Assembly: GCA_016234845.1 (NCBI GenBank)
Contig: JACRNP010000117.1
Span: forward strand, 1 to 38,538
Length of the DNA: 38,538 nt
From: Deltaproteobacteria bacterium
GTDB lineage: Bacteria > Desulfobacterota > Deferrimicrobia > Deferrimicrobiales > Deferrimicrobiaceae
Direction: 5' to 3'
Part shown: piece by piece, positions 22,350 to 33,802 of the stretch
Position numbering within the stretch: position 1 is the stretch's first letter
How the letters are laid out: each line of letters begins with the position of its first letter
Position numbers and translations under genes: made by a program
The notes under the pieces: generated by a model
The model's input: the letters and a program-made list of their open reading frames with translations, nothing else
Database searches by the model: none
Told to the model about the DNA's origin: nothing

Positions 22350-22883
22350 TCAGTTGACGACCGAGAACGAAAGGTTGAACCGCACGAGCTTCACGTTCAT
22401 CATCGAAGACTGGTCGGCGGATCCGAGCGTCACGTCGCGGAATCGCCCGGTCTGCCCCAGCGCGGTCATGAAATTCGCGACGGTGTTGTTGTTCAACGCG
22501 ACCCCGGAGAGGGTGATCCTCTCGCCCTGGACGCTCAGCTGGTCGATCCAGCACTTCTCGGGGATGGCCGCCGACAACGCTTCGAACGTCTTTACCGGAG
22601 CCTTTCTTCCCGTCTGCAGGCTCGATATGATGTCCACCTTCTTCTGCAGCTCCGCCTTCCGGGACTTGAATCTCTCGACTTCTCCGATCTCCTTCTTCAG
22701 CCGCTCGATGTCGGCGTTCGCCTGCCGGATGTTCTGGTTCAGCGTCTTGATCTTTCCGGACACCGTGGTGTGGAAGTACAGCGTCCCCAGCAGGACCACC
22801 AGGGGAGCCAGCAGGAAGACGAACCCGACGTTGAATTCCCGGCGCTTCTTCCGTTTTCCCCGGATGAGGTTGATCCGGATCAT
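22350..22883 (-). CDS. pilN: Type IV pilus assembly protein PilN
   Basis: The 177-residue protein begins MIRINLIRGKRKKRRE, the conserved INL(I/L) motif that docks into PilM in the cytoplasm. A membrane helix (about 20-40) and a coiled coil (about 44-88) lead to a periplasmic domain that pairs with PilO. Its ATG overlaps the pilM stop by 4 bases (ATGA), in keeping with the tight PilM-PilN stoichiometry. Confidence 0.96.
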   Translation of the reverse strand: MIRINLIRGKRKKRREFNVGFVFLLAPLVVLLGTLYFHTTVSGKIKTLNQNIRQANADIERLKKEIGEVERFKSRKAELQKKVDIISSLQTGRKAPVKTFEALSAAIPEKCWIDQLSVQGERITLSGVALNNNTVANFMTALGQTGRFRDVTLGSADQSSMMNVKLVRFNLSFSVVN

Positions 22884-23941
22884 CCGCGAGCCTCCAGGTT
22901 CCGCAGCGCGAGGCCGATCGAGACCGTTGCGGAGGTGTTGAATTGGGCAACCACGGCGGGATCCACGGCCTTGTCGTCCACGGTCAATCCCTCGATCGGA
23001 TCGAAGATCTCGACTCCGACCCCGATCTTGTCGGAGAGCAGCTCCTTGAGGAACATCGATTTCGCCGCGCCGCCGGTGAGGAAGACCTTCGTCACCAGCC
23101 GGTCGGGGTAGGTCGCGGAAAAGAAGTTGTACGAGCGCTGCGCTTCCGTGGCCAGGAGGTTCGATACGACCTTCATGATCTCCTGGAACTTCTGGGCGCG
23201 CTCCCCGGGATCCTTCTTCCCCAGCTTGTACTCCTCGGCCGTCTCGTAGCTCACGGCCAGCTGCTTCTGGATCTCCGAAGTGTACATTCCGCCGCCCATC
23301 GGGACGTCGCGGGTGAACAGGGGGACCCCGGCGTGGAGGATGTTGATGTTCATGAAGGAGGCTCCGACGTTCACCACCATCGGCACCTGCTCGTCCGCCA
23401 CCGGGTGGGTGAGCTCGAACGCGTTCCCGACGGCCAGCGAGTCGATGTCGACCAGCCGCGGGACGAGGCCGGCGTCCTTGACGACGGCCATGTAGTCGTT
23501 GATCAGGTCGGTTTTCGCGGCCACCAGCAGGACGTCCATCTTGGAAGGGTCATCCTTCAATGGGCCGATCACCTGGAAATCGATCTTCACGTCCTTGATA
23601 TCGAAGGGGATGTACTGCTCGACCTCCCACTGGATCGACTCCTCGAGCTCCTCGGCGGTGGTGGTGGGGAGCTGGACCTTCTTGATGATGACCGAATGGC
23701 CCGAGAGGGAGATGGCGACATCCTTCTCGCTGACCTTCAGCTCCCGCATGGCGGTCTTGATTCCCTCTACGACGGCGGCGTGGTCCATGATCGCCCCGTC
23801 GACGATCGAGTCGGCCGGCAGGGGGAACACGCCGAACTTCCGCAGCCGGTTTTCCGCGCCGATCGCCTTGACATGGGCCATCTTCACGGCGCTCGACCCG
23901 ATGTCCAGCCCGATCACCTCTTTGCTGCCGAACAGGCCCAT
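22880..23941 (-). CDS. pilM: Type IV pilus actin-like ATPase PilM
   Basis: The 353-residue cytoplasmic protein has an actin/FtsA fold and forms a ring under the pilus by binding the PilN tail. Family marks are MGLFGSKEVIGLDIGSSAVK (phosphate 1 loop), VQLPTTTAEELEESIQWEVE, VVNVGASFMNINIL (phosphate 2) and VFLTGGAAKSMFLKELL (adenosine motif). Length is normal. It follows the small XRE-type regulator after 23 bases and opens the pilMNOPQ set. A weak GGGGG lies before ATG 23941. Confidence 0.96.
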   Translation of the reverse strand: MGLFGSKEVIGLDIGSSAVKMAHVKAIGAENRLRKFGVFPLPADSIVDGAIMDHAAVVEGIKTAMRELKVSEKDVAISLSGHSVIIKKVQLPTTTAEELEESIQWEVEQYIPFDIKDVKIDFQVIGPLKDDPSKMDVLLVAAKTDLINDYMAVVKDAGLVPRLVDIDSLAVGNAFELTHPVADEQVPMVVNVGASFMNINILHAGVPLFTRDVPMGGGMYTSEIQKQLAVSYETAEEYKLGKKDPGERAQKFQEIMKVVSNLLATEAQRSYNFFSATYPDRLVTKVFLTGGAAKSMFLKELLSDKIGVGVEIFDPIEGLTVDDKAVDPAVVAQFNTSATVSIGLALRNLEARG

Positions 23942-23964: not shown

Positions 23965-24198
23965 TTAGATCTTGAACACCTTGTCCCGGTCGGACAGCTT
24001 CAGGCCGAGCGACAGGATGATCTTTCTCTTAGTGTCCATCCGGCACGCCAACCCCTTTTCCACCCGATCGATCGTCAGGACGGACAGCTTTGCCCGCCTG
24101 GCCAGCTCCGCCTTGCTCATCAGGAGCCCTTCACGGATCTTTCGGACGTTGTTCGGGTCAACTTTAATCTTTTCTCGCTCCGGGCTTCCCACGGTCAT
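23965..24198 (-). CDS. Small XRE-type helix-turn-helix regulator
   Basis: The 77-residue protein is a single HTH_3-like domain. VRKIREGLLMSKAELARRAK forms helices 1 and 2 and LSVLTIDRVEKGLACRMDTK the recognition helix and turn, followed by KRKIILSLGLKLSDRDKVFK. No sensor or dimerisation domain is attached. It is the first gene of the pilMNOPQ transcript, 23 bases ahead of pilM, behind a sigma-70 promoter whose spacer holds an inverted repeat, so autoregulation of the pilus operon is a reasonable inference. Its DNA is less GC-rich than that of its neighbours. ATG 24198 has AGGGGTGA upstream. Confidence 0.88.
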   Translation of the reverse strand: MTVGSPEREKIKVDPNNVRKIREGLLMSKAELARRAKLSVLTIDRVEKGLACRMDTKRKIILSLGLKLSDRDKVFKI

Positions 24199-24322: not shown

Positions 24323-25723
24323 TTATGCCCCCTCGACCCCGTACTCCTTCGCCTTGTACAGCAAGGCCGGGTGACTGATCCCCAGGAGCTCCGCCGCCTT
24401 CGGTCTGCTCCCTCCGGTGCGCTCGAGCGCCATCCGGATCAGCTGGCGTTCCAGCTCCCGCACGGCCCCTTTCAGGTCCGGCCGCTCGGGGGACACGGGG
24501 ATACGGACGACGTGGGCGGGACCCGCGTCCTGCGCCCGGCCCCCCGGGCCGGCGGCGTTCCAGACCGCCATCAACTCCCCTCTCGTGATCTCCCGGGAGG
24601 CCCCGAGAAGGGCGCATCGTTCCATCAGGTTCTTGAGCTCCCGGACGTTCCCGCGCCACTCGTGGGCGCCGAGTGCGATCAGGACGTCGTCCGAAAGCTT
24701 CATCTCCGTCTTCCCGTACTTTCGGCAATAGTGGGAAATAAAATTCCTAGCGAGGAGCGGGATGTCCGCCGGACGCTCGCGCAACGGGGGAACGTGAATC
24801 CGGATCACGTTCAACCGGTAGAACAGGTCGTCCCGGAAACGCCCCGCTGCAACCTCGGCCTCGAGGTCGCGCGCGGTCGCCGCCACCATCCGGACATCGA
24901 CCCGGCGGGTCTCGGAGTCGCCCAGCCGCCGGATCTCCCCCTCCTGCAGGAATCGGAGCAGCTTCGTCTGCAGGGGGTTCGGCAGCTCTCCGATCTCGTC
25001 CAGGAACAGCGTCCCCCGGGCCGCCTCTTCGATGAGTCCCGCCCGATCCTTCTTCGCTTCGGTGAAGGCCCCTTTCCTGTGCCCGAACAGCTCGCTCTCC
25101 AGCAGGGTCTCCGGGATCGCGCCGCAGTTGACGGCGACGAACGGCCTCTCCCGGCGTTTCCCGCCGTAGTGCAGGAGGCGCGCGATGAGCTCCTTCCCGG
25201 TCCCGCTTTCTCCCGTGACCAGGACCGTGGCGTCGTAATCCATCACCTTCTCCGCCATCCGCACCGCGGCGTCCATGGCCGGATCGGCGTACAGCAGCTC
25301 GCCGGGGCGCGCGGATTTCTCTATCTCGCTCCGGAGGTACTCGTTTTCCGTTCGGAGCCGCTCCCGTTCCGCTGCCTTCCTGAGGGTCAGGAGGATCTCG
25401 TCGCTCATGAACGGCTTGGACACGTAGTCGTACGCCCCGAGCTTCATCGCCTCGACCGCCGTCTCCACCGTTCCGAACGCCGACATCATGATCACCGTGC
25501 CCGGGATCCCCTTCGCGGTGACCTCCCGCAGAAGGTCGAGGCCGCCCAGGACCGGCATCCGGAGGTCGCAGAGGATGAAATCGAACCGCTCCTCCCCCAG
25601 GATCCGGAGCGCCTCCCGCCCGTCCCCCGCCTGGCGGACCTCATATCCCTCCGCGGAGAGAATCCTTCCGAGGGCGTCCCTCAGGGACGGCTCGTCGTCC
25701 ACCACCAGGATCCGGTCAGCCAT
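24323..25723 (-). CDS. NtrC-family response regulator with a GAFTEA loop
   Basis: The 466-residue protein has a receiver domain (about 4-118, phosphorylation site Asp53, Ser81, Lys103), an AAA+ sigma-54 activation domain (about 145-375; Walker A GESGTGKE at 171-178, Walker B LFLDEIGE) and a Fis-type DNA-binding C-terminus ([20 protein letters not shown]). The loop that touches sigma-54 is normally GAFTGA; here it is GAFTEA (218-223), a change that may alter or bypass sigma-54 contact. The gene overlaps the end of its kinase by 8 bases, so the two form a pair. Its targets are unknown; nearby candidates are the divergent HAMP/pseudopilin genes. The stop at 24323 precedes the AT-rich promoter of the pil operon. 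Confidence 0.93.
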
Positions 25724-27263
25724 CCTTCCCCCCCTCCTCGTGCATCGCGGCCTCCCTTCGCGCCGGCGGAAGAACGACGACGAAGGTCGCTCCGCCCCCC
25801 TCCACGCTTTCCGCGCGGATCTCCCCTCCCGCGCTTTCCACGATCGTCCGCGAAACCGATAAGCCGAGGCCGGTGCCCTTGCCGGGGTCCTTGGTCGTGA
25901 AGAACGGGTCGAACACGAGCGGGAGATCCTCCGGCCGGATGCCGCTGCCGGTGTCCGAGACCGAGAGGGCGACGCCGCTTCCCGCCCGCGCGCCGGCGGC
26001 CCGGAGCGGAATCCCGTCCATCCCGGGCGGATCGGTCGAACGGCGGCGGAGCGCCTGTCCGTGCCCCGGGTTCCACCCTTCCATCACCCACGTCCGCACC
26101 GTCATCCTCCCCTTCCCCGACATCGCGTCGACCGCGTTGATCGCAAGGTTCAGGAGAACCTGCCGGAAACGGTCCTCGAGGATCGCGGCCCCCGGGACAT
26201 CGTCCAGCTCGAGGCGAACCTCGACCTCCCGGAAGAGGTTCCGGAACGAGAGCATCTCGACCGTCCGGCGCACCACCGCGTTCACGTCCGTGGCCCCTTC
26301 CCGCCCCCCCGCCGGAGAGGCGACCGAGAGGAGCCCGCGGACGATCTGCTCCATCTTCCGGGTTTCCTCGACGACCTTCCCCAGGCACTCGTCCGTCTCC
26401 TCGCGCCCCGGGCGGTGCCGGAGCAGATGCTCCGCGTACCCTCGGATCGCCATCAGCGGACTTCCCACCTCGTGCGCCACTCCCGCGGCGAGCCGCCCGA
26501 CGGTCGCCAGCTTGTCCGAGCGGAACGCCTCCAGCTCCGACCGGCGCGAACGCTCCTTCGCCTCGAGGATTCCGTCCACCATCTTGTTGAAGGAGGCGGC
26601 GAGCTGGCCGATCTCGTTTCCTTCGACCCCCTCGGCGCGAAGTTCGTACTCCCCCGCGGCGATCTTCTCCGACGTCGCCGCCAGACGGCGGACGGGCGCG
26701 ATCACCGACCGATCCAGGAGGAACCCTCCGAACAGGACGAGCACGCCGACGTCGATCGCCGCGAGCACCATCGTGACGTTCACCAGGGTCCGCACCTCTT
26801 CCGCGATGCCGGAGGAGTGGAAACGGACCCGCATCCCCCGGACCCTGTCCCCCGGCGCTCCCCCCGGAACGGGTTCGGGGAGGGAGAACGGCAGCGTCAC
26901 GTCCACGGTCGGGCTGATCGAAAGGAGGGCGAAGACCTTTTTTCCGACCGGAACGACGGCGGGCCGTCCGTCGGGAGGCCCCTCCGGCAGGAGGTCGATG
27001 CCCCGGATATACGGCGTGAGGTACCCGGCGAGATCGGGCCGGGAAGAGGCGGGGGAAAACTTCCCCGAGGCGAAATCGTTCTGGACCGCCCTCCGTACCA
27101 CTTCGGCCACGGTGACGCCCGCCTCCGCGTGGCGGCGTTCGAGGGCGACTCCGACCGCCTTCAAAGCGAACACGGCGACGAGCGCGAGGGAGGCGGCGGC
27201 CACCAGCACCAGCTGGACCAGGACGCCGGCACGGATCGACAGGGGTCGGTTCAGCGGAGCCAC
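25716..27263 (-). CDS. Membrane sensor histidine kinase
   Basis: I choose GTG 27263 as the start (MAPLNRPLSIRAGVLVQ), giving 515 residues, because longer versions run into the divergent plus-strand gene; no Shine-Dalgarno is visible, so the start is provisional. It has TM1 (about 10-36), a periplasmic sensor (about 40-160), TM2 (about 164-184), HAMP (about 185-237), a HisKA domain with His264 in AHEVGSPLMAI, and a HATPase domain with NLAINAVDAM, DTGSGI, DPFFTTK and GTGLGLS. The residue four past the histidine, usually Thr or Asn and needed for phosphatase action, is Ser268. It is paired with the downstream NtrC-type regulator. Two TM segments and a HAMP domain differ from the multi-TM PilS of Pseudomonas. 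Confidence 0.92.
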   Translation of the reverse strand: MAPLNRPLSIRAGVLVQLVLVAAASLALVAVFALKAVGVALERRHAEAGVTVAEVVRRAVQNDFASGKFSPASSRPDLAGYLTPYIRGIDLLPEGPPDGRPAVVPVGKKVFALLSISPTVDVTLPFSLPEPVPGGAPGDRVRGMRVRFHSSGIAEEVRTLVNVTMVLAAIDVGVLVLFGGFLLDRSVIAPVRRLAATSEKIAAGEYELRAEGVEGNEIGQLAASFNKMVDGILEAKERSRRSELEAFRSDKLATVGRLAAGVAHEVGSPLMAIRGYAEHLLRHRPGREETDECLGKVVEETRKMEQIVRGLLSVASPAGGREGATDVNAVVRRTVEMLSFRNLFREVEVRLELDDVPGAAILEDRFRQVLLNLAINAVDAMSGKGRMTVRTWVMEGWNPGHGQALRRRSTDPPGMDGIPLRAAGARAGSGVALSVSDTGSGIRPEDLPLVFDPFFTTKDPGKGTGLGLSVSRTIVESAGGEIRAESVEGGGATFVVVLPPARREAAMHEEGGKDG

Positions 27264-27333
27264 GGGAGGGAAATTGCGCTCGGATCTGGTATCATCCGGA
27301 TCAGAATAGCAAAAACGGGTTCCGGAGGCGAAG
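27264..27333. promoter_or_regulatory. Divergent promoter region, kinase versus HAMP protein
   Basis: This 70-base gap holds two head-to-head extended -10 sequences. On the plus strand TGGTATCAT ends at 27295. On the minus strand TGCTATTCT lies near 27303-27311. The perfect palindrome ATCCGGAT (27294-27301) sits between them. Neither has a convincing -35 box. A shared regulator site controlling both directions is plausible. GGAGG at 27324-27328 is the ribosome site for the plus-strand GTG. Confidence 0.4.
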
Positions 27334-27813
27334 GTGGATCGGAAGGACGACCGACGCGGCACCATACTGATCGACAGGGAATTCCAGATCAACCTCGCCT
27401 GGCACTACCTGCTCGCCGTCGCGTTCTTCTTCGGAGTGGGACTGGTCCTGGTCTTCCTCCCCTCCGCGTACGTCCTGTTCACCACCGACGACCTGAAGTC
27501 GCTCGAGGCCGCCGTCGCCGAATTCTTCGTTCTTCACAAGCGGATCTGGCCCGCGGCGATCGTCACGCTGGCGGGCGTGTTCCTCTATTCGTTCCTGATC
27601 GGCCACCGCATCGCCGGACCCGTATATCGGGTCAACCAGGTCCTTCGGCAGCTCCTCCGCGGAGAGCGCCCGGAGAAAGTCGAATTCAGGAGTCCCGACT
27701 ATTTCCACGAAACGGCGAAACTCCTCACCGAGCTCTCCGGGAAACTTTCGGCGATACCCCCGCGCGAACGGACCGGGAACGACGAACCGTCCATCGGAGA
27801 GCCGCGCCCTTGA
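27334..27813 (+). CDS. Two-pass membrane protein with a HAMP-like segment
   Basis: The 159-residue product starts at GTG 27334 behind GGAGG. It has TM1 (about 21-48) and TM2 (about 72-92), then a HAMP-like cytoplasmic helix pair beginning HRIAGPVYRVNQVLRQLLRG, and ends shortly after without any kinase, cyclase or chemotaxis output domain. The region between the membrane helices (about 49-71) is too short for a folded sensor. It is translationally coupled to the pseudopilin gene by a TTGA overlap (27810-27813) and divergent from the sensor kinase. A HAMP domain with no output suggests that it passes a signal to a partner protein, perhaps that kinase. I do not recognise a named family. Confidence 0.85.
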   Translation: MDRKDDRRGTILIDREFQINLAWHYLLAVAFFFGVGLVLVFLPSAYVLFTTDDLKSLEAAVAEFFVLHKRIWPAAIVTLAGVFLYSFLIGHRIAGPVYRVNQVLRQLLRGERPEKVEFRSPDYFHETAKLLTELSGKLSAIPPRERTGNDEPSIGEPRP

Positions 27814-28205
27814 TCGCGCGACGAAGATCCCGGAACCGCGGCTTCACGCTGATCGAGCTCTCGGTGGTCCTCCTGATCACCGGGATATTGGCCGCCCTCG
27901 CGGTGTCGACCTATTTCCGCATGATCTCCAAGGCCCGGATGGCGCAGGCCTCGATCGTCCTGAAACACCTCCACAAGACGGAAACCGTCTATTTCAGCGA
28001 AAGGAACGCGTACACGGACAACGTGACGGTACTGGACTTCGACCCGGTGCAGTACGACTACTACCGGGTTACCGTCACGGTCGACAACACGGGGACGGAT
28101 TTCCTGGGGGTCGCGGAAGGAGTGGGGCCGATGGCGGGGGACCGGTGGACGATCGACAAGGACGGAGTCCCGACGCAGGACAACGCGGCAAGACTCAGGT
28201 TCTGA
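27810..28205 (+). CDS. Type IV pilin-like protein (pseudopilin)
   Basis: The 131-residue protein starts at TTG 27810, inside the stop of the preceding gene, with GGAGAG eight bases upstream; no other start is available in frame before the pilin motif. The prepilin site is RNRG/FTLIELSVVLL, cut after Gly11, with the conserved Glu at position 5 of the mature chain (residue 16). The globular part is short (KHLHKTETVYFSERNAYTDN, then DFDPVQYDYYRVTVTV), like minor pilins or GspG/GspH-type pseudopilins. PilD, encoded on the opposite strand, should process it. The last 11 bases overlap the 3' end of pilD tail to tail. It is probably a minor subunit or a sensor-linked pilin rather than the main fibre, which is PilA at 31820-32308. 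Confidence 0.9.
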   Translation: MIARRRSRNRGFTLIELSVVLLITGILAALAVSTYFRMISKARMAQASIVLKHLHKTETVYFSERNAYTDNVTVLDFDPVQYDYYRVTVTVDNTGTDFLGVAEGVGPMAGDRWTIDKDGVPTQDNAARLRF

Positions 28206-28959
28206 AGAGGAACCCCCAGAACGCCCCTCCGGTGAACCGCGCCGCAACCGCTCCGACGCACAGGTACGGACCGAACGGGATCGCCGTCCTCAGGCCGTCC
28301 TTTCCACCCCTCATGGCGATCACGCCTCCCGCCACCCCCAGAAGGGAACCGGCGAAGATGGTGACCAGCGCCCCCCTCCAGCCGAGAAACGCCCCGATCA
28401 TGGCCATGAGCTTCACGTCCCCTCCCCCCATGCCTTCCCGCCCCGTCGCCTTGAGGTACGCCGCGGCCGTCGCGTAGAGGATGCCGGCGCCCGCCGCTGC
28501 GCCCAGAAGGCCGCCCTTCCAATCGCCTCCCGGAAGGAACGACATCAGGATCCCGGCCGCGAATCCTCCCAGGGACAGTTCGTCCGGGATGATCCGGTGG
28601 TCGATGTCGATGATGGCGATCGGAACCAGGAGGGAGACGAAGAGGAAGTCCCGCGCCATCGGCACGCCCCACCCGTCGACCCACGCGATCCCCCCGAAGG
28701 CGACGGCCGTCATTCCTTCCACCAACGGGTATCTCCACGAAATGGCCCCGCCGCACCCGGCGCACCTGCCGCCGAGCGCGAGGAAGCTCGCCACGGGGAT
28801 GTTCTCGAACGGCCGGATTTCCCTCCCGCAGGAAGGGCAGCGGGACCGCGGCGAGACGATCGACTCCCCCCGGGGGAGGCGGTAGATGACGACGTTCAGG
28901 AAACTTCCGACGCACGCTCCGAGCAGGATGGCGGCGAGCGGAAGCGCGACTCCCGTCAC
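28195..28959 (-). CDS. pilD: Prepilin peptidase PilD (with N-methylase domain)
   Basis: This inner membrane aspartyl protease cleaves prepilins after Gly and methylates the new N-terminus. The start GTG 28959 shares GTGA with the permease stop, giving 254 residues; longer in-frame forms lie inside the permease gene. The cytoplasmic loop has the two CxxC pairs (CPSC at 41-44, CAGC at 66-69) of bifunctional enzymes, and the catalytic aspartates are in AIIDIDHRIIPDE (Asp118) and GGGDVK (Asp181). About eight hydrophobic segments are seen. It sits downstream of the ABC genes, as in the Myxococcus pilGHI-pilD order, and should act on both PilA and the convergent pseudopilin. Confidence 0.96.
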   Translation of the reverse strand: MTGVALPLAAILLGACVGSFLNVVIYRLPRGESIVSPRSRCPSCGREIRPFENIPVASFLALGGRCAGCGGAISWRYPLVEGMTAVAFGGIAWVDGWGVPMARDFLFVSLLVPIAIIDIDHRIIPDELSLGGFAAGILMSFLPGGDWKGGLLGAAAGAGILYATAAAYLKATGREGMGGGDVKLMAMIGAFLGWRGALVTIFAGSLLGVAGGVIAMRGGKDGLRTAIPFGPYLCVGAVAARFTGGAFWGFLFRT

Positions 28960-29732
28960 TTGAAATCCTTCCGCGAAAACAGAAGGCAGGAAACGATCAG
29001 CACGCAGGCGGCGTAGCAGAGAAGGTAACCCGCCGCCCAGACGAGGACGGAAAGCGAATTCAGCGTCCCGTACGCGACCTCGTTCTTCCAATTGAAGTTT
29101 TCGAGGTTCGGAAGAAGGTGGAAGAGAAACCGCCCCCCCCACCGCACCGCGACCAGCCGGGAACGCTCGCCGATCAAGTGCAGGTAATCCGACAGATGTC
29201 CGATCAGGAACAGGGAGAGGGTGAAGATGGCGCTCAGCACCGGCGTGGTGAAGGTGGAAAACAGGGAGGCGATGCAGGTTAGGAGCACCAGCTCCATGTA
29301 GATTCCACCCGACGCGATGAAGATCCCGATCTCCGCCCTTCCTCCGTGCCGGTAGGACAGGTGCACGAGAAACAGCACCACCGCCATGGCCGCGGTCGTG
29401 AGGGCCAGCGTGACGCTCAAGCCGATGGTTTTCCCCAGGAGAAACTCGAAGCGCCGCACCGGTTTCGACAGGATGATGTAGATCGTTTTCCGCTCCACCT
29501 CGTTGCTGACGAGATGGATCCCGAGGAAGACGGCCATGACGACCCCGAACAGGTGGATGCTGGCCAGCCCGATGTCGGCGATGATCCGTGCGAAGTCGCC
29601 CACCGACAGGTCCGCGAGAAAGAAGGTCGTTCCGATGACGAACAGGGCGAAGGCGAGGATCGCATAGAGGATCTTGTTCCGGATCGTCTCCCGGAACGTG
29701 TTGGCCGCGATCGAAGCGATCCTCCGGATCAC
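28956..29732 (-). CDS. ABC transporter permease, PilI position
   Basis: The 258-residue protein has about six membrane helices (first about 20-42, after MIRRIASIAANTFRETIRNK) and the ABC-2 type phrase NEVERKTIYIILSKPVRRFE, which marks the coupling region of this permease group. It lies one base after the ATPase gene and overlaps pilD by 4 bases. By position it corresponds to PilI of Myxococcus xanthus, part of an ABC system needed for pilus formation there. The transported substrate is unknown, in this organism and largely in the model. Confidence 0.88.
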   Translation of the reverse strand: MIRRIASIAANTFRETIRNKILYAILAFALFVIGTTFFLADLSVGDFARIIADIGLASIHLFGVVMAVFLGIHLVSNEVERKTIYIILSKPVRRFEFLLGKTIGLSVTLALTTAAMAVVLFLVHLSYRHGGRAEIGIFIASGGIYMELVLLTCIASLFSTFTTPVLSAIFTLSLFLIGHLSDYLHLIGERSRLVAVRWGGRFLFHLLPNLENFNWKNEVAYGTLNSLSVLVWAAGYLLCYAACVLIVSCLLFSRKDFK

Positions 29733-32308: not shown

Positions 32309-32361
32309 TCTTTCTTCCTCCTTTCGGGTCTGGGAGAACGATCTCGTTGCTCCGGTATATC

Positions 32362-32377
32362 GCAAGGGGCGGGCCAA
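32362..32377 (-). promoter_or_regulatory. Sigma-54 promoter of pilA
   Basis: On the minus strand TTGGCCCGCCCCTTGC (32377-32362) fits the sigma-54 pattern TTGGCACG-N4-TTGC, with the GG and GC doublets exactly ten bases apart. The start of transcription would be near 32351, about 43 bases before ATG 32308. PilR, a sigma-54 activator, is encoded directly upstream. No good sigma-70 promoter is seen in this gap. Confidence 0.85.
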
Positions 32378-32413: not shown

Positions 32414-33802
32414 TCATTCGATCCCGTGTTTTTGAATCCGATACCGAATCGACCGAAGGGAAATATTGAGTAGTTTCGCGGCTTCCGTCCGGTTTCCCAC
32501 GGTCTTCTCCAACGCTTTTTCGAGGTATATCTTCTCCAGTTTATCCATCTCCGTGTCCAGGAAAACCCCATCATCCGGGAATGACTCCTTGTAAGAAGCC
32601 GATTCACCGGCTTCTCTCGTGACAATTTTTGTCACATTGGGAGGAAGGGCATCGATGGAGATGACATTTTTTGTCTCCATGATCATCGCCCGCTCGAGGA
32701 TGTTCTCCAGCTCCCTCACGTTCCCGGGGAAATCGTACGCGAGGAGAGCCCGCATGGCCTCGCCGTCGATCCGCCCAAACGGCTTGCCGTGCTTTTCGGC
32801 GAACTTCCGGACGAAGTGGGCGGCCAGCGCGGGGATGTCCTCCCGCCGGTCCCGGAGGGGTGGAACGAAGATCTGGATCACGTTCAACCGATAGTAGAGG
32901 TCGTCCCGGAACCGCCCCTCCATCATCTCCTGGTTCAGGTCCCGCTTCGACGCGCAGAGAATCCGGAAATCGATCGACAGGTCCTCGTTCCCGCCGACCC
33001 GCCGGAACGACCGTTCCTGCAGGGCGCGAAGCAGCTTGCTCTGCATCGGCTGCGGAAGCTCCCCCACCTCGTCGAGGAACAGGGTTCCCCGGTGCGCCGC
33101 CTCGAACAGCCCTTTCTTGGTCTGCACCGCGCCGGTGAAAGCCCCGCGGACATGCCCGAACAGCTCGCTCTCGATCAGCGTCTCCGGGATCGCCGCGCAG
33201 TTGATCGGGACGAACGGGAACTCCTTCCGGTTGCTCCGGGAGTGGAGGGCGGCCGCCACAAGCTCCTTCCCCGTGCCGCTCTCCCCCAGGATCATGACGT
33301 TGGCGTCGGTGGGCGCCACCCGGTCGATGAGCTCGAACACCCCCAGCATCGTCTCGCTGCGCCCGACGATCCCCTCGTACGACGAGGTTCCCCGGACCGA
33401 CTCGCGGAGCGCCCTCCGGCGCCCCACGGCGTCCTCTTTCCGGGCAAGCGCCGACTGCACGAGCGCGCGCAGCTCCGCGTTGTCGAACGGTTTGGCGATG
33501 TAGTCGTACGCGCCGAACTTCATCGCCTCCTTCGCCGTCTCGACGGTGCCGTACGCGGTCAGCACGATCACCTGGGTCCAGGGATTCTTCCGGACCGCCG
33601 CCCGCAGCACCTTGAGGCCGTCGTCGGATCGTCCCATCCGGAGATCGGTCAGGACCAGGTCGTACGCGTTCGCCTCGATCGCCTCCTCCGCCTCGGCCAG
33701 GGAGGAGGCCGTGTCGACCTCGAACCCCTCCTTCCGGAAGAAAAGACCCAAGACCTGTCGAAGGCTCTGTTCGTCGTCGACTACGAGGACATACTCCTTC
33801 AA
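32414..33802 (-). CDS. pilR: Sigma-54 dependent response regulator PilR
   Basis: The 462-residue protein starts at TTG 33802, overlapping the topA stop as TTGA, with GGGGAGG upstream; the long open frame above it lies inside topA and is a shadow. A receiver domain (about 3-120, phosphorylation site Asp53) is followed by the AAA+ domain (about 142-375) with Walker A GESGTGKE and an intact GAFTGA (220-225), and a Fis-type HTH ending NRTEAAKLLNISLRSIRYRI, the form seen in PilR proteins. It lies 105 bases upstream of pilA and its sigma-54 promoter, so it most likely activates pilA. Its usual kinase PilS is not adjacent; topA occupies that place. The kinase at 25716-27263 or one outside the window may serve it. 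Confidence 0.93.
   Translation of the reverse strand: MKEYVLVVDDEQSLRQVLGLFFRKEGFEVDTASSLAEAEEAIEANAYDLVLTDLRMGRSDDGLKVLRAAVRKNPWTQVIVLTAYGTVETAKEAMKFGAYDYIAKPFDNAELRALVQSALARKEDAVGRRRALRESVRGTSSYEGIVGRSETMLGVFELIDRVAPTDANVMILGESGTGKELVAAALHSRSNRKEFPFVPINCAAIPETLIESELFGHVRGAFTGAVQTKKGLFEAAHRGTLFLDEVGELPQPMQSKLLRALQERSFRRVGGNEDLSIDFRILCASKRDLNQEMMEGRFRDDLYYRLNVIQIFVPPLRDRREDIPALAAHFVRKFAEKHGKPFGRIDGEAMRALLAYDFPGNVRELENILERAMIMETKNVISIDALPPNVTKIVTREAGESASYKESFPDDGVFLDTEMDKLEKIYLEKALEKTVGNRTEAAKLLNISLRSIRYRIQKHGIE

Follow-up and report, generated by a model that had tools for sequence, protein, structure and literature searches.

In the window, by which we mean the whole stretch of 38,538 nucleotides analysed, a membrane protein consisting of little more than a HAMP segment (HAMPm) and a type IV pilin-like protein (psp) are encoded as an overlapping gene pair. 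We consider that the two proteins form an inner-membrane input unit that serves different signalling enzymes in different lineages, and that in this family the enzyme is probably the adjacent histidine kinase with its NtrC-type regulator (RR1); we put the probability of this reading at about one half. The recurrence of the pair beside exchangeable signalling enzymes suggests that a pilin is used as a signal input.

The window belongs to an incomplete genome of 213 contigs (G000), and its named relatives are metagenome-assembled genomes of uncultured "Deltaproteobacteria". Type IV pili occur in the described member of the MBNT15/Deferrimicrobia group (PMC9386147), to which this genome may belong. 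The features are listed in Table 1. The four genes are flanked by pilM-Q (18.8-23.9 kb) on one side and by pilD/pilA (28.2-32.3 kb) on the other, and pilD is convergent with psp, which its product would process. The preliminary description of this DNA proved accurate as to the gene positions, the kinase and regulator pair diverging from a two-gene unit, the TTGA overlap, the 70-base gap, and the placement between two pilus blocks. A small gene for an XRE-type HTH protein of 77 aa lies between pilM and RR1; it stays beside pilM in genomes G018 and G010 and in genus g2, which is without the four-gene module.

Table 1 Features of the window, with positions, strand, and the basis of each assignment.
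Feature	Position	Strand	Basis
pilM, first gene of pilMNOPQ	22880-23941	-	named by eye from sequence; ORF and conserved synteny
Small XRE-type HTH protein	23965-24198	-	
RR1, NtrC-type response regulator (receiver, sigma54 AAA+, Fis-type HTH)	24323-25723	-	Pfam
Membrane sensor histidine kinase (HAMP, HisKA, HATPase)	25716-27263	-	Pfam, hydropathy, orthologues
Intergenic region kinase/HAMPm, exactly 70 bases	27264-27333		
Conserved AGAATAGCAAAAA block, oriented towards the HAMPm gene	27303-27315		
GGAGG	27324-27328		
HAMPm, HAMP-only membrane protein, 159 aa	27334-27813	+	
psp, type IV pilin-like protein, 131 aa	27810-28205	+	PF07963, AlphaFold model, PDB matches
PilD prepilin peptidase	28195-29142	-	Pfam A24_N and Peptidase_A24
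Best sigma54 (-24/-12) site in the window, TGGCCCGCCCCTTGCG, directly upstream of pilA	32361-32376	-	
RR2, second NtrC-type regulator, canonical GAFTGA, adjoining pilA	32414-33802	-	orthologues

HAMPm has two transmembrane (TM) helices joined by a periplasmic loop of about 25 aa, followed by a HAMP-like helix-linker-helix. A Pfam scan of the window protein itself gave no HAMP domain and no domain at all, so that in this respect its earlier naming as a HAMP-like segment was not borne out by the protein alone. The naming stood on other grounds: two relatives exceeded the Pfam HAMP cut-off of 25 bits (L100, 25.8 bits; L107, 27.2 bits), and profile-profile alignment placed the HAMPm family profile onto a kinase HAMP at 96% (E 2e-9), the direct profile match being weak against the window kinase and good against the kinases of relatives. 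The predicted structure (pLDDT 79) consisted of TM1, a short turn, TM2 continuing into the first HAMP helix, a linker, and a second helix; its best PDB match was the TM-HAMP part of WalK, a weak one (E 0.4), and a sequence search against the PDB returned designed repeat proteins only (E > 0.3). Invariant positions among 21 relatives include Gln18, Pro43, Gly95-Pro96, Arg119, and Asp122. From the Pfam scores of the relatives, the profile-profile match, and the model topology, HAMPm is a HAMP domain protein. It has no sensory domain, and therefore a partner must supply the input.

The start codon of psp, TTG, overlaps the HAMPm stop, and a 4-nt overlap of this kind was found in 12 of 14 genomes. 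The protein carries the prepilin motif RGFTLIEL and scored above the Pfam cut-off for PF07963. The best fold matches of its AlphaFold model (pLDDT 80) were Thermus PilA4, a Shewanella pilin, and Myxococcus PilA, none of which reached E 0.001. With the class III prepilin signal GFTxxE and the modelled pilin fold, psp is a type IV pilin-like protein. The name pseudopilin given to it before is better replaced by this one, given the model matches. As the type II secretion pseudopilin GspG, psp was rejected, the GspG equivalog giving 33.6 bits against a cut-off of 88.85.

The association of the two proteins was then followed through the phylum. A profile search of 395 genomes found HAMPm relatives in 102, and a further search of the class added more; neighbourhoods were read for 74 HAMPm loci outside the main family group. 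Counted by profile, because a prepilin regular expression had missed the pilin of L202, a prepilin gene lay within 3.5 kb in 30 of the 74 loci and in none of 20 control regions from the same genomes. All 30 were on the same strand as HAMPm, mostly touching or overlapping it, and the linkage extended over about 12 families. In a tree of 82 HAMPm sequences with a midpoint root, two deep clades were separated (SH-aLRT 99), one with 38 of 52 members pilin-linked, the window included, and one with 0 of 30. Part of the unlinked members sit at contig ends, and the count of 38 labels L044, where the pilin is lost and HAMPm kept, as pilin-linked along with its family. The co-occurrence suspected in the preliminary description is thus confirmed by the conserved overlap, the same-strand linkage, and the clade split. 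HAMPm and pilin are an old, translationally coupled, and widely kept pair, and the core unit is this pair, not the four genes. A second HAMPm relative in the window's genome, from the clade without pilins (L062, G000:C107, 3975-4859), adjoins another pair of kinase and NtrC-type regulator.

Within the family, the order pilMNOPQ-RR1-kinase / HAMPm-pilin-pilD is kept in most of 24 genomes, and most genera (in family f1 and one f2 genome) have the four-gene block; G024, of a sister family, has the same order of pilM-Q, RR1, kinase, HAMPm, pilin, and pilD. Because it recurs across the family, the arrangement is not due to chance. The search across genomes that had been proposed earlier gave a positive result, in most family genomes and one sister-family genome, but it did not support the claim of one four-gene module as stated, since parts are split off or lost in several lineages. 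In G018 (L064), HAMPm and pilin are gone and pilD abuts the kinase, which is kept with RR1. In G010 (L043), kinase and RR1 are gone and the order is pilM, the small HTH gene, HAMPm, pilin, and pilD, with the pair intact. In G009, the pair is on another contig (L041) and kinase and RR1 are still beside pilM (L065). The pilin is gone and HAMPm kept in G008 and G014; genus g9 has lost the pilin and kept HAMPm, kinase, and regulator, and genus g2 (three genomes, one near-complete) is without all four genes, its pilus genes being intact. These exceptions, read from mechanical gene calls in partly incomplete genomes, indicate that HAMPm with pilin and kinase with RR1 are two separable units. Pilus genes persist without either of them.

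Such separability is also what would be expected if HAMPm and pilin were a part of the pilus, namely a minor or alternative pilin with its dedicated holdase, stabiliser, or assembly factor, and if the kinase pair were uninvolved, adjoining only because pilus genes cluster. The pair retained without the kinase in G010, and moved away from both the kinase and the pil genes in G009, accords with this explanation, as does its promoter. In relatives, a TTGAC element lies 16-17 bases upstream of the -10, and the family consensus upstream of HAMPm is TTGAC, 16-17 bases, TAGAATAGCAAAAA; in the window the -35 is degenerate. The region carries a predicted, conserved sigma70-type promoter reading into HAMPm, and this promoter stays with the pair in both G010, where the kinase is absent, and G009, where it is elsewhere. 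Sigma54 control of the shared gap was rejected, as the site is absent there in all relatives. Of the shared control region postulated earlier, the gap exists, and the sigma70-type promoter in it is no sign of control by the NtrC-type regulator. Even so, we regard the explanation as a pilus part as rather unlikely: HAMP domains normally pass signals, and in g9 the pilin has been lost while HAMPm, kinase, and regulator remain, so that HAMPm is not only a partner of the pilin.

The gene neighbourhoods argue in the same direction. A signalling neighbour was defined as a kinase, receiver, sigma54 activator, or HD-GYP gene within 4.5 kb, recognised by small home-made profiles in loci unevenly spread over families. 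By this measure, 22 of the 30 pilin-linked loci had one (L218 being counted by its shared sensor domain alone), against 6 of 44 loci without pilin and 4 of 20 controls. Fisher tests that ignored kinship gave p 3e-7 against the unlinked loci and 4e-4 against the controls; with kinship considered, the direction was the same and the association was not significant (about 4:0 independent pairs, median p 0.125). HAMPm-pilin pairs with no signalling neighbour also exist (L101, L102, L103, L107, L111, L206, and L217), which suits a pilus part. Around L101, L102, and L104, where HAMPm, accompanied by a pilin in the first two, has no signalling genes beside it, M20-type peptidase, sulfate-assimilation-like, and FlgT/GNA1162-like secreted genes were seen.

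Among these loci a module recurs that also speaks against a pilus part; it joins a pilin, a small lipoprotein (about 130 aa, present where read), HAMPm, and a membrane sensor of one type (27-38% identity in most cross-pairs, falling to 22-25% where L213, an outlier, is involved). The output of this sensor is HisKA/HATPase in L106, L110, L113, L129, L204, L209, and L215, and GAF-HD-GYP in L055, L115, L201, L202, L205, and L213, with at least three changes of output on the tree. L106 matches the window in all four kinds of component, its genes for the pilin, the kinase, HAMPm, and an activator of GAF-sigma54 type following one another in a single run. Pilin, sensor, lipoprotein, and HAMPm were all seen in L055, L106, L110, L115, L202, L204, L209, and L213 (families f34, f50, and f69), and a Pfam scan of one module lipoprotein (L055) matched no family. 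The repeated module is the strongest single observation, and it has the look expected of an input unit whose outputs can be exchanged. HAMPm-pilin pairs recur beside membrane signalling proteins, which supports the preliminary description. They also occur widely without the kinase pair, which it had named as evidence against its proposal, because the kinase pair is separable from HAMPm and pilin; yet most such loci carry another signalling gene.

The kinase (GTG start) has two TM segments by hydropathy, a periplasmic stretch of about 130 aa, and the phospho-acceptor region GVAHEVGSPL. Its position with RR1, an NtrC-type pair inside a pilus cluster with a sigma54 promoter at pilA, would also fit a system of the PilS/PilR type, with a periplasmic signal of its own or the major pilin as the stimulus and pilA or pilM-Q as the target, in which HAMPm and pilin play no part. 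G018 agrees with this, as it has kept kinase and RR1 without HAMPm and pilin; relaxation of the kinase sensor region was not seen there, its conservation equalling that in relatives with HAMPm. However, the kinase is by topology not PilS, since two TM segments were predicted from hydropathy in it and its relatives, against six in PilS (PMC6058289). The AAA+ domain of RR1 is clear (Pfam, E 3e-70), but its sigma54-contact loop is GAFTEA in place of GAFTGA, and all 16 orthologues read have GAFTEA or, in g9 and f2, GAFTDA. In Desulfovibrio, the variants GAFSEA and GAFTDA occur naturally and are regarded as functional (PMC4641369); in the GAFTGA loop of NorR, a Gly-to-Asp change made the protein constitutive and Gly-to-Glu at the same position made it inactive (PMC2941729). 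Sigma54 sites upstream of pilA are strong and conserved in relatives, and the window site adjoins RR2, not RR1; upstream of HAMPm, the kinase, or pilM, no such site was found in any family member. RR2 orthologues lie beside pilA in L034, L063, L065, L069, and L070. RR2 has no kinase beside it; with its canonical loop and the conserved site at pilA, it probably acts as the PilR of this lineage, and a PilS/PilR role for kinase and RR1 seems to us improbable.

We therefore rank the input unit first, the pilus part second, and the PilS/PilR-type system third. The gene pair, its conservation, the prepilin motif, the pilin fold, the HAMP homology, and the recurrence beside swapped outputs are observed; that the proteins touch, which way the signal runs, what the stimulus is, and which targets the regulator has are inferred. 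The hydrophobic N-terminal helix would anchor the pilin in the inner membrane, where its abundance or conformation may change, for example by exchange between the membrane pool and the pilus or by binding of something to the domain on the periplasmic side. HAMPm, which has two TM helices and hardly extends into the periplasm, could sense the pilin by helix-helix contact. A conformational change of its HAMP segment would then be handed on to the HAMP domain of the kinase, which in turn would set the phosphorylation of the regulator. Against the input unit stand the independent loss or unlinking of kinase and pair (G010, G018, g9, and G009), the unrelaxed sensor of G018, the loci without a signalling neighbour, and the lack of significance once phylogeny is corrected for. 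Of the chain from pilin sensor through HAMP link to kinase that was first proposed, a real pair beside signalling genes remains, and the obligate four genes do not. As a wider and more tentative idea, Desulfobacterota-type bacteria might possess an undescribed class of modules that sense outside the cytoplasm by a dedicated pilin, relay the signal within the membrane by a HAMP-only protein, and have interchangeable outputs (a kinase with or without an NtrC-type regulator, or an HD-GYP c-di-GMP enzyme). The version in the window would be the one built into a type IV pilus locus.

The route from pilus state to cytoplasm has been worked out in a few model bacteria only. If the reading is true, a pilin with a bare HAMP relay would be a general plug-in converting pilin state into phosphorylation or c-di-GMP, short enough to dissect, and the loci offer definite candidates for study in lineages not yet cultured, where pili may be used on mineral surfaces. 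A literature search covering few subscription journals found no description of HAMP-only proteins paired with pilins, and no described system matched in the literature searched, as the preliminary description had also concluded.

Three known systems come closest. In PilS-PilR of Pseudomonas, the pilin PilA is an intramembrane input to a kinase paired with an NtrC-type regulator (PMC6058289), and the window likewise has a kinase and an NtrC-type regulator with a pilin in a pilus locus, the pilin input here being proposed; it differs in the two-TM HAMP kinase, the extra HAMP-only protein, the small separate pilin that is not the major pilin, the GAFTEA loop of RR1, and a sigma54 site at pilA beside the other regulator. 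In the Pseudomonas system of minor pilins, PilY1, and FimS-AlgR, a two-component system receives feedback from the minor pilins that does not depend on the assembly of pili (PMC5979040), whereas the window regulator is NtrC-type and not AlgR, a HAMP-only protein is present, and neither PilY1 nor a minor-pilin operon was seen next to the window genes. In the Pil-Chp system, the membrane receptor PilJ is proposed to read the state or concentration of PilA in the inner membrane (PMC9210963); unlike it, HAMPm lacks both a sensory and a CheA-coupling domain, and it is found with a kinase or an HD-GYP protein. By analogy, the proposed working of the window module would resemble pilin-to-kinase sensing as in PilS-PilA or in minor pilins and FimS.
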